The notes under the pieces were generated by a model. It ran no database searches. It was not told the origin of the DNA and saw only the letters and a list, made by a program, of their open reading frames with translations. A program made the position numbers and the translations under genes. A stretch of DNA of 64,000 bases from Nonomuraea indica (GTDB lineage Bacteria; Actinomycetota; Actinomycetes; Streptosporangiales; Streptosporangiaceae), in the NCBI RefSeq assembly GCF_002850745.1, contig NZ_KZ559480.1, positions 62,001-126,000 on the forward strand. Direction: 5' to 3'. Shown here one piece after another: positions 41,495-46,559 of the stretch; the first letter of the stretch is position 1; each line of letters opens with the position of its first letter.

Positions 41495-42118
41495 TCAGCC
41501 GTAGGCGCGCAGGAACGCCGCCACCGCCGCCTCGGCGAGCCGGTCGAGCTCGGCCTCGGCGTAGGAGCCGCCGCCGCAGAACATGAGCCGGTTGACCGGG
41601 ATCCACAGCAGCATGCCCATGAAGTGCTCCGCGGCCAGCCGGGGGTCGTCCAGCCGGAGCAGCCCGCGCCCGGCCAGGCGCGCGAAGCAGGAGGCCAGGG
41701 TGTCGAGCACGCTCTGGAAGCCCTCCTCGTACCAGGTGCGTCCCACGTCGGGGAAGCGGTCGGCCTCCGCGATGATCAACCGGCGGAGCCGGAGCACGTC
41801 GGGCCGCAGCAGGGCGCCGAGGAAGGTGCGGGCCAGCCTGCCGAGGTCCTTCGCCGGGTCGTCGGCGGCGTCGAGCGTGGCGGCGATCGCCCGGGTGAGG
41901 TCGTCGAACTCGCCGGCGGTGGCGGTGATGACGTCGGTGAAAAGCTGCTCCTTGTCGGTGAAGTGCTTGTAGACGGTCTGCTTCGACACCGCCGCGAGCG
42001 CCGCCACCTCGTCCATGCTGGCGCCGACGTAGCCGTTGCGCAGAAAGACCGCCCTGGCCGCGTCGAGGATCTGCCTGCGCTTGCGTGCCGTCCGGCCCTC
42101 TTCCACGTCCGCCGTCAT
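41495..42118 (-). CDS. TetR-family regulator (AefR-like C-terminal domain)
   Basis: 207 aa. HTH at 12-58 (RRQILDAARAVFLRNGYVGASMDEVAALAAV, SKQTVYKHFTDKEQLFTDVI). The ligand domain begins LDAADDPAKDLGRLARTFLGALLRPDVLRLRRLIIAEADRFPD, the TetR_C_7/AefR type. Divergent from a serine hydrolase gene with two direct copies of GTACxxxxCAGTTCCG between the start codons, so it probably regulates both. Confidence 0.9.
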   Translation of the reverse strand: MTADVEEGRTARKRRQILDAARAVFLRNGYVGASMDEVAALAAVSKQTVYKHFTDKEQLFTDVITATAGEFDDLTRAIAATLDAADDPAKDLGRLARTFLGALLRPDVLRLRRLIIAEADRFPDVGRTWYEEGFQSVLDTLASCFARLAGRGLLRLDDPRLAAEHFMGMLLWIPVNRLMFCGGGSYAEAELDRLAEAAVAAFLRAYG

Positions 42119-43405: not shown

Positions 43406-44332
43406 ATGCGCCTACGCCTGGCCGTCGCCGCCATGCTCCCCCTTCTCGCCCTCACCGCCTGCGGCTCGTCCGGCCCCGCTCAGGAGGCGGGTCCGACGAG
43501 GACCGTCAAGCACGCCATGGGTGAGACGAAGGTGCCGATGACCCCCAAGCGGGTCGTGGTACTCGACACGGACAAGCTCGACACGATGGTCTCGCTCGGC
43601 CTGGCGCCGGTCGGCGCGGCGCAGGCGCAGGACAGCCAGAAGTGGCCCGCGTACCTGGGCTCGGCCCTGTCCGCCACCAAGACGGTCGGCACCCTGCAGG
43701 CGCCGAACATCGAGGCCATCATGGCGCTCAAGCCCGACCTCATCCTGGGCTCCAAGTTCCGGCAGGCCGCCTTCTACGACAAGCTCAGCAAGATCGCCCC
43801 CACGGTGTTCACGGAGCGGGTCGGCGTCACGTGGAAGGAGAACTTCCTGCTCGACGCCGAGGCACTGGGCAAGAAGGACAAGGCCGCGCAACTGCTGTCC
43901 GCGTACGAGAGCCGGGCCAAGGAGGTCGGCGGCAGGTTCTCGAAGGTGCAGGTCGGCATCGTGCGCTTCATGCCGACCGAGATCCGCATGTACGGCCCCG
44001 AGTCCTTCAGCGGCATCGTGGTGGGCGACGCCGGCATCGCCCGGCCGGAGCCGCAGCGGCTCTCCGGCCAGCAGGACAAGCGCTTCGGCAAGCTGAGCCA
44101 GGAGAACATCGCCCAGGCCGACGCCGACGTGATCTTCTACAGCGCGTACGGCGAGGCGGCCGCCGAGGCGCAGGCCAAGGTGACCGCCGGGCCGCTGTGG
44201 AAGAAACTGAAGGCGGTCACGTCGGGCAACGCCCACAACGTGGACGACGAGATCTGGATGCTCGGCATCGGCGTCACGGCGGCCGGCAAGATCCTGGACG
44301 ACCTGGCCGAACACCTGGCCCCGCTGGCCTGA
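43406..44332 (+). CDS. Iron-siderophore ABC transporter substrate-binding lipoprotein
   Basis: 308 aa from the ATG at 43406. Lipoprotein signal with lipobox LTAC (Cys at residue 19). Class III/TroA fold text: PKRVVVLDTDKLDTMVSLGLAPVG, VGTLQAPNIEAIMALKPDLILGSKFR, YDKLSKIAPTVFTE and the long linking helix. This is the FecB/FepB-like group for ferric-siderophore binding at the cell surface. No permease or ATPase gene follows, so it must share components elsewhere. An iron box overlaps the promoter. A 19-bp tandem repeat starts at its stop. Confidence 0.93.
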   Translation: MRLRLAVAAMLPLLALTACGSSGPAQEAGPTRTVKHAMGETKVPMTPKRVVVLDTDKLDTMVSLGLAPVGAAQAQDSQKWPAYLGSALSATKTVGTLQAPNIEAIMALKPDLILGSKFRQAAFYDKLSKIAPTVFTERVGVTWKENFLLDAEALGKKDKAAQLLSAYESRAKEVGGRFSKVQVGIVRFMPTEIRMYGPESFSGIVVGDAGIARPEPQRLSGQQDKRFGKLSQENIAQADADVIFYSAYGEAAAEAQAKVTAGPLWKKLKAVTSGNAHNVDDEIWMLGIGVTAAGKILDDLAEHLAPLA

Positions 44333-44404
44333 CCGCGACCCGCCGACCTGACCGCGACCCGCCGACCTGACCGCGACTCCCTGGCCTGACCGCGACCCGG
44401 TGGC
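44329..44404 (+). repeat. 19-bp tandem repeat anchored on the lipoprotein stop codon
   Basis: Four units of CTGACCGCGACCCGCCGAC (44329, 44348, 44367, 44386); the first two are identical and the others differ at three or four bases. The TGA in unit 1 is the native stop; each further unit repeats it in a new frame. Confidence 0.93.
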
Positions 44405-44502: not shown

Positions 44503-45981
44503 TCAGAACGAGACGACGGCGGTTGCGAAGGCGTCGATGACGACCGGCTCCCCCGGCCGCACCGGTGTGCGCACCGGTGCGGCCGCGCCGCTGCCGACAC
44601 CCGTCTGTTCCACCTGGCCGGGACGGCCGTCCTGGGCGGTGATCGCGACGCCGACGGGCTCGTCCGTCTTGTTGACGAGCAGGAGCTTGCGATCGCCGCC
44701 CACCGTGACGAAGCCCTGAGCGTGGATCCGGTTGTCGGGGTAGCCGAACACCGAGCTGCTCGTGGTGACGAGAGAGTCGCCGGCGGCGAAGTGCCGCAGC
44801 AGCAACTGGAGCGCGCGGTAGCGGGCGTTGGGCGCGCCGGTGTCCCAGTCGATGAGCGTCGCGCCGGGGATCATGCCCGGATAGTCCATGAACTCGGCGA
44901 TGCCGACGAGGTCCACGCCGAGTTCGACGAGCCGGGCCCACAGGTAGGACTGCAGCGCCGCGCTGAGCGACCAGTACTCCTCCGGGATCGTGGGGGCCGG
45001 GTTCATGAGGTCAGGGGGGTAGGTGCCCACTTCGTTGATGAAGGTCCGGGTCGCGGGTGCGAGCCGGCGGCGGATGGCGTCGATGTGGCGGACCTGGTCG
45101 AGGAACGCCTCGGCCTGGGCGAAGAAGAGTCCTCGCCAGTGTTCATAGGGGGCGTTGCCGTGCTCCGAGACCGGGTTCACGATCTCCGGGAAGGCGTAGA
45201 AGTGATAGGAGATCGCGTCCGGCGCCACGCCGTCGGCGTGGTTCGCCGGGTCGAGGAAGTGCCAGAAGTACTCCGGTTCGCGGGCGACGGGGCTCAGCGA
45301 CAGCCCGATGAACTTCATCTCGGGATCGAGGGGGCGTAGCCGCTCCACGACGGCGCCGTACAGCCGCGTGTACGACTCGGGCGGGATGCGGTGGCCCATG
45401 TCGGGCTCGCACAGCACTTCCCAGTACGCGAAGCGGTAGTGGTGGCCCGACTCGTGCCGGCGGCCGAGCTCGTCGGTGAAACCGCCCGCGATGTACCAGC
45501 TCGCGATCCGGTAGAAGTAGTCGACGACCTCGTTCAGCGTGGGATCGCGCAGCTCGGTGCCCTGCTCGTATTCCCAGTGGATCTCGCCAGGGTCCTCCGC
45601 GACCGGCACCGGCTCGGGGGTGACGAACATCCACGAGGGGATCGTGGCGAAGTCGGCCACGACCGGCCTGCCCTGCGCCGCGTTCATGAAGTCTTCCACG
45701 AAGGGATCGAGAAGGGCGAAATCCCACGACGTCTCACTGGTGGTGGGCGGGGTCAGGGCGGGCACCGCCAGGCGGGGATGGGAGTACCAGGGCAGGAACC
45801 GCGCAAGGTCGGCGTTGAGGTCGCGCAGCGCGCCGAACGCCTTGTCGTGGATCGGCGAATCACGACGCAGCGGCGGGGCGGTCCACACGTGCGTGGTCAA
45901 CGTCGTGCGCGACACGCCTGTCCTGGCGTTCCAGTCGAGGAGCACCTCGGTGGGCGGCGGCTGCGGCGGTTCGACCGTCAT
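44503..45981 (-). CDS. Clan GH-A glycoside hydrolase (GH39-like)
   Basis: 492 aa from the ATG at 45979-45981 (GGAGAGA upstream), cytoplasmic by lack of a signal peptide. Barrel text: acid/base in YWEVLCEPDMGHR (the E before P-D, as in the W-N-E-P motif of the clan), nucleophile candidate FINEVGTYPPD. C-terminal beta-sandwich from about residue 410 (HAQGFVTVGGDRKLLLVNKTDEPVGV). GH39 enzymes act on xylosides or iduronides, but the specificity cannot be fixed from sequence. The promoter carries two overlapping perfect 20-bp palindromes. Confidence 0.78.
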   Translation of the reverse strand: MTVEPPQPPPTEVLLDWNARTGVSRTTLTTHVWTAPPLRRDSPIHDKAFGALRDLNADLARFLPWYSHPRLAVPALTPPTTSETSWDFALLDPFVEDFMNAAQGRPVVADFATIPSWMFVTPEPVPVAEDPGEIHWEYEQGTELRDPTLNEVVDYFYRIASWYIAGGFTDELGRRHESGHHYRFAYWEVLCEPDMGHRIPPESYTRLYGAVVERLRPLDPEMKFIGLSLSPVAREPEYFWHFLDPANHADGVAPDAISYHFYAFPEIVNPVSEHGNAPYEHWRGLFFAQAEAFLDQVRHIDAIRRRLAPATRTFINEVGTYPPDLMNPAPTIPEEYWSLSAALQSYLWARLVELGVDLVGIAEFMDYPGMIPGATLIDWDTGAPNARYRALQLLLRHFAAGDSLVTTSSSVFGYPDNRIHAQGFVTVGGDRKLLLVNKTDEPVGVAITAQDGRPGQVEQTGVGSGAAAPVRTPVRPGEPVVIDAFATAVVSF

Positions 45982-46036
45982 GGCTTCTCTCCTGTCGCTA
46001 CGGGACCCAGTTCCAGAGCGTGGGACCGGGATCATA

Positions 46037-46070
46037 TAGCTACACTAGTGTAGCTACAGTACTGTAGCTA
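46037..46070. promoter_or_regulatory. Two overlapping perfect 20-bp palindromes
   Basis: TAGCTACACTAGTGTAGCTA (46037-46056) and TAGCTACAGTACTGTAGCTA (46051-46070) share TAGCTA; centres are 14 bp apart. They lie 56 bp upstream of the glycosidase start and 148 bp upstream of the DoxX-like gene. The form fits a TetR-type operator pair, but no regulator gene is adjacent. Confidence 0.85.
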
Positions 46071-46217
46071 TAGATCGACGCGGCTCCTCGCATGTGACGC
46101 ACGTCACGCTCGCCGCCGGTCACATCGCCCTGGGGCGCCGGGTCAAGGCAGTGACGGACTCACCGATCACGCAGCCGCGGCCCCGGCCCGGCGTCACCGA
46201 AGCAAGGAGCACCCCAG

Positions 46218-46559
46218 ATGGTTCACGTCGTCGTCACCGTTCTCGCCGCCGCGTGGGTGGCTTTCTCCGCCTACGCCGTCCTCAGCCGCGCGGCGTGGGT
46301 CGTCGGGCCGCTCGCCTCGTACGGTGTCCCGCGCTCATGGTGGCCCTGGCTCGGTGCCGCCAAGGCCGCGGGCGCAGCGGGCCTGCTGGTCGGCCTGTTC
46401 GTGCCGCCGATCGGCACGCTGGCCGGAGTGGGCCTGGTCCTGTACTTCGCCGGGGCCGTCGTCACCGTGCTCCGCGCACGCTCCTACGCGACCGTCGCCT
46501 ACCCGCTGCTGTACCTCGGGCCGGTTGTCGCCGCCCTCGTCCTGGGCTCCGCCGCCTGA
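46218..46559 (+). CDS. DoxX-family small membrane protein
   Basis: 113 aa, ATG at 46218 with AAGGAGC upstream. Four hydrophobic helices with DoxX-like text (VVGPLASYGVPRSWWPWLGAAKAAGAAGLLVGL, GVGLVLYFAGAVVTVLRAR). Members of this group sit in the membrane and are linked to thiol/oxidative functions in some bacteria; no catalytic residue is visible here. Faces the glycosidase across the double palindrome and may share that regulator. Confidence 0.84.
   Translation: MVHVVVTVLAAAWVAFSAYAVLSRAAWVVGPLASYGVPRSWWPWLGAAKAAGAAGLLVGLFVPPIGTLAGVGLVLYFAGAVVTVLRARSYATVAYPLLYLGPVVAALVLGSAA

Follow-up and report, generated by a model that had tools for sequence, protein, structure and literature searches.

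A tandem palindrome array upstream of a glycosidase gene in Nonomuraea indica and its probable control by a distantly encoded TetR-family regulator

Which regulator reads a conspicuous pair of palindromes that has no regulator gene at its side? The question is raised by the window analysed here, a stretch of 64,000 nucleotides from Nonomuraea indica (contig NZ_KZ559480.1), in which two perfect 20-bp palindromes share the six bases TAGCTA (46051-46056), their centres lying 14 bp apart (Table 1). The pair had been described in an earlier note on this DNA, which placed it between a glycosidase gene and a DoxX-like gene with no adjoining regulator; the palindromes, their position and the lack of a regulator beside either gene were all confirmed. 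No further perfect 20-bp palindromes occur in the window. The note's judgement that the find is very improbable by chance stands for the overlapping pair and has to be relaxed to mildly rare for one palindrome alone, which is unremarkable because about 0.28-0.4 would be expected per window of such composition. The palindromes lie in an AT-rich island of 41% G+C, as against 73% for the window, and the motif scores 14/14 core bases twice, the best of 60 simulated windows reaching 12/14; two overlapping palindromes with identical arms in such an island are far outside chance. A weak copy at 45981-46000 (11/14, in the start codon region, 56 bp away) was rejected as being at chance level in the simulations, and the 34-bp array as a whole gave no match in 394 other genomes of the class.

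Table 1. Features of the glycosidase promoter region, in window coordinates
Feature	Position	Strand	Remarks
Glycosidase gene (predicted target)	44503..45981	-	clan GH-A-like glycoside hydrolase, 492 aa; ATG at 45981
Glycosidase ribosome-binding site, AGGAGAG	45987..45993	-	read from sequence
Candidate -10 region of glycosidase promoter, TATATGAT	46031..46038	-	begins at last TA of outermost TAGCTA box
Operator 1 (candidate), perfect 20-bp palindrome, TAGCTACACTAGTGTAGCTA	46037..46056	.	motif also in TetR/DUF418 promoter on contig C4
Operator 2 (candidate), perfect 20-bp palindrome, TAGCTACAGTACTGTAGCTA	46051..46070	.	overlaps operator 1 by TAGCTA

The predicted target is the glycosidase gene, whose product matched no Pfam or NCBIfam family. 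Its AlphaFold model (mean pLDDT 83) aligned with GH51, GH30 and GH39 enzymes at VIA-align Z values of about 25-28 over about 350-415 residues, and on this modelled fold the protein would be a (beta/alpha)8 barrel of clan GH-A, resembling those three families. E192 (in WEVLCEP) and E317 (in FINEVG), invariant in 17 homologues, are candidates for the two catalytic glutamates of such enzymes. The gene is patchily distributed across actinobacteria, with 17 loci in 84,980 species genomes in a search limited to close relatives. A short tandem repeat with units resembling CTGACCGCGACCCGCCGAC lies at 44332-44400, between the ends of a substrate-binding-protein-like gene and the glycosidase gene, on the side that corresponds to the position of the TetR gene in N. 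thailandensis.

The promoter of the glycosidase gene was placed by comparison. Of 16 aligned glycosidase-family promoters, 13 have a TANNNT hexamer that fits a -10 box and starts with the closing TA of their last TAGCTA, a comparison made after the sites had been seen and hence descriptive, not pre-planned. The window has one of the three promoters that are not exactly TANNNT; its sequence is TATATG or, starting two bases further along, TATGAT, the latter being likely the hexamer of its -10 region. A generic sigma-70 scan found no promoter, and the start of a longer glycosidase reading frame, at 46035, falls within the candidate -10 region. With the promoter so positioned from its conserved geometry, the palindromes would form a dyad-symmetric site in or beside a promoter, the arrangement of a TetR operator.

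On its other side, the DoxX_2 gene (46218-46559, + strand) starts about 150 bp from the array; it was rejected as a target on account of this distance and of no DoxX gene being seen at that place in N. thailandensis. It is probably a bystander, outside the system and unaffected by the array. A near-palindrome, GTGACGCACGTCAC inside TGTGACGCACGTCACG (46094-46107), lies upstream of DoxX_2 and comes within one mismatch of the CRP-type pattern TGTGA-N6-TCACA. The window's own TetR gene (41495-42118, AefR-like) was judged an unlikely source of the binding protein, being of a different C-terminal class and 4 kb away.

The search for further copies of the motif that the earlier note had advised, together with a search for a TetR-type gene whose own promoter contains the site, was extended to the whole genome (8.29 Mb in 58 contigs, 99.99% complete). 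It returned one other strong copy, C4:339835 (TAGATACACGACTGTAGCTA), and a weaker one 31 bp beyond it; both lie on contig C4, where a DUF418 gene and a TetR gene (at about C4:339895-340509) share a divergent promoter. DUF418 proteins are members of the transmembrane acyltransferase superfamily (PMC12423673). Copies on contigs C2 and C10 with three mismatches were dismissed as chance level, a reversed control pattern giving more matches. The C4 regulator matched TetR_C_11 above the cut-off (E = 1.3e-12) and TetR_N at 22.4 bits, just under the cut-off of 24, and by these profiles it is predicted to carry the TetR_N and TetR_C domains of the family. Its nearest solved relative in the PDB is 2zb9 (phmmer E = 1.8e-11), which we take to be SCO0332; the two share the TetR fold as judged by sequence, the relationship being remote. 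The C4 TetR is also the only close homologue in the genome of the TetRs that are linked to glycosidase genes elsewhere. The view of the earlier note that a cognate TetR-type regulator is encoded elsewhere is thus supported by the C4 TetR and the shared sites, to which it is presumed to bind.

The array might, alternatively, be the operator of a different regulator encoded elsewhere in the genome, the C4 match reflecting a shared ancestral motif only. TetR proteins are numerous in this genome (69 first-look candidates), and related TetRs can have half-sites in common. Against this, the next closest TetR in the genome is just 33% identical to the glycosidase-linked TetR of N. thailandensis, four paralogues of similar distance in congeners lack the site in their promoters, and no other regulator gene with a strong site was seen in the genome. 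On balance, a different regulator is unlikely.

The pairing of motif and C4-type TetR recurs across the genus. TetRs with 69% identity or more to the glycosidase-linked one of N. thailandensis were present in 26 of 54 Nonomuraea genomes, and among 36 congeners the motif was found in 17 of the 18 genomes with the TetR versus 3 of the 18 without it (Fisher P = 4e-6). All 25 DUF418-linked orthologues of the C4 TetR carry the motif in the shared promoter, with one to three sites each and typically two, their centres 31-34 bp apart (25 copies). An autoregulation-type site is thereby indicated, by promoter sequence, for the C4 TetR and for every DUF418-linked orthologue checked. One of the three exceptions with the motif and no TetR adjoins a GntR-type gene. 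The match in genome G008 (TAGATACAAGCTTGTATCTA, beside a GntR-type gene) was set aside as another family or chance, as were those in G001 (similar to TAGATACAAGCTTGTATCTA) and G005, genomes without a C4-type TetR. At a congener locus (L053, around 2448), the perfect palindrome TAGATACAAGCTTGTATCTA adjoins a GntR-type regulator gene and is possibly that gene's own operator.

Conservation upstream of homologous glycosidase genes was the point on which the earlier note had staked its proposal, and such conservation was found: N. thailandensis has the site, and in five other genera a variant array precedes the homologous unit. N. thailandensis is the only Nonomuraea species outside the window genome with the glycosidase (86% identity), and the gene is likewise preceded by two overlapping sites, 14 bp apart. 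Directly downstream of it lies a TetR gene whose product is 75% identical to the C4 TetR, and on the far side of the operator lies a broken DUF418 piece. Congener G063 has a DUF418-linked TetR whose leader is matched (88%) by that of the N. thailandensis TetR, and the TetR tree joins the two proteins as sisters (99/99), so that the N. thailandensis glycosidase appears to have been inserted into a DUF418/TetR locus, on the stretch that separates the operator from the TetR gene.

A TetR-glycosidase operon, with the glycosidase in second place, was found in Nocardia, Micromonospora, Saccharomonospora and Mycolicibacterium houstonense. The TetRs of these operons, in 13 loci, are 44-52% identical to the C4 TetR, and the promoters heading the TetR-glycosidase unit in other genera contain two or three TAGCTA-type sites in exact 14-bp steps. 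Actinopolymorpha has a similar array upstream of the glycosidase unit and yielded no intact TetR match. The homologues in Microbacterium and Cellulosimicrobium have no TAGCTA array; upstream of these genes (L047/L048) lies another AT-rich palindrome, TATACATACGTATA / GTTATACATATGTCTAAC, and beyond it an apparent divergent TetR-type gene.

These comparisons bear on whether the array could be a decaying relic, left functionless once a linked TetR had been lost. No TetR or DUF418 remnant was found beside the window glycosidase, while N. thailandensis keeps both a DUF418 remnant and its linked TetR, which speaks for a relic. Decay, however, sits poorly with two perfect sites that retain all 14 conserved core bases and are better than most relatives' sites, and a compatible TetR is still encoded in the genome; we consider a relic somewhat less probable still than a different regulator. 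That the palindromes form an RNA hairpin, a terminator or attenuator, or a recombination site is very improbable: perfect palindromes can form hairpins, but a search for a terminator-like site found none, the array lies over the inferred core promoter and upstream of the inferred start, its homologues stand at promoters of TetR-linked genes, and a variable centre flanked by conserved bases is the pattern of protein contacts.

The array is thus best read as a promoter-occluding tandem operator that, with high probability, is bound in trans by the C4 TetR, the glycosidase being repressed until a ligand appears. Dimers of the C4 TetR would bind both palindromes and cover the glycosidase promoter. 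The arrangement is naturally read as repression by occlusion, in which the dimer at operator 1 would contact the -10 box and both dimers together would cover the -35 region. The 14-bp spacing amounts to about 1.3 helical turns, so that neighbouring dimers would sit at different DNA angles. TetR-family regulators usually respond to a small ligand; here a carbohydrate-derived one is plausible, given the GH-A-like target and the link to the DUF418 acyltransferase superfamily. Its binding would release the C4 TetR, and the glycosidase, the DUF418 protein and the TetR itself would be switched on together. The linked regulator of the window glycosidase would have been lost or never present, the distant TetR acting instead. 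From sequence comparison, we infer the binding in trans, the repression, the cooperation between dimers and the indifference of DoxX.

Several observations temper this reading of the C4 TetR as the repressor. The TetR and glycosidase genes are unlinked in the window genome and their pairing rests on the shared sites; the sites in the C4 promoter are 31 bp apart and not 14; and conservation at the glycosidase within the genus amounts to a single independent comparison, with one other Nonomuraea species. A second TetR could also be missing from the draft assembly.

Operators that accommodate two dimers are well documented in the TetR family, those of QacR, CgmR, Ms6564 and CprB being listed at 22-32 bp (PMC4150764). 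The window's site of 34 bp, in the same ~30-bp class, is predicted to hold two dimers likewise, and its overlapping array is compatible with the two-dimer class. Unlike in the QacR/CprB type, each dimer site in the window makes up a complete 20-bp palindrome, and the palindromic TAGCTA box is shared between neighbouring sites in 14-bp steps, with up to three sites in a row across the arrays compared. Closest in organisation are the Nocardia-type TetR-glycosidase operons (L036-L046, L049, L050), which have a homologous glycosidase (69-72% identity), a related TetR, and the same 14-bp TAGCTA array and -10 position; they differ from the window in that the regulator is linked and upstream and that the half-sites are mostly TAGCTACG rather than TAGCTACA.

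The difference between half-sites is concentrated at position 8, where A occurs in 89% of 96 Nonomuraea half-sites and in all four of the window, whereas G occurs in 64% of 72 half-sites from the operons of other genera, a comparison again made after inspection of the sites and so descriptive rather than pre-planned. The recognition helix of the TetR differs in parallel, reading T(P/A)RTTLYRRW in most Nonomuraea members and VAKTS(I/L)YRHW in most of those from other genera, and in the tree the C4 TetR groups with the DUF418-linked proteins of Nonomuraea, outside the Nocardia-type clade. Related TetRs may have gained control of one glycosidase family through TAGCTA arrays along three routes: in a Nocardia-type operon, by insertion at a DUF418/TetR locus (N. 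thailandensis), and in trans, with the glycosidase gene unlinked (the window genome). That this reflects repeated re-pairing with the local version of the TetR, base 8 and the recognition helix changing together, is a tentative suggestion to which we give almost as much credence as doubt.

In the literature searched, which covered few subscription journals, no description was found of the motif, of DUF418 paired with TetR or of operators joining a TetR to a glycoside hydrolase. Systems of this kind are well known; the regulon, the 14-bp box-sharing array and the linkage that varies by lineage appear undescribed. By comparative genomics, an orphan operator is tied to a specific repressor candidate, and what emerges is an apparently undescribed TetR regulon that would unite a Pfam-less glycosidase with a DUF418 transmembrane acyltransferase-like protein. 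The conserved 14-bp overlap may offer a clean system for how adjacent TetR dimers share a box. The loci together would constitute a natural series in which a small regulon has been rewired between actinobacterial lineages, the unlinked wiring of the window genome being its interesting part.
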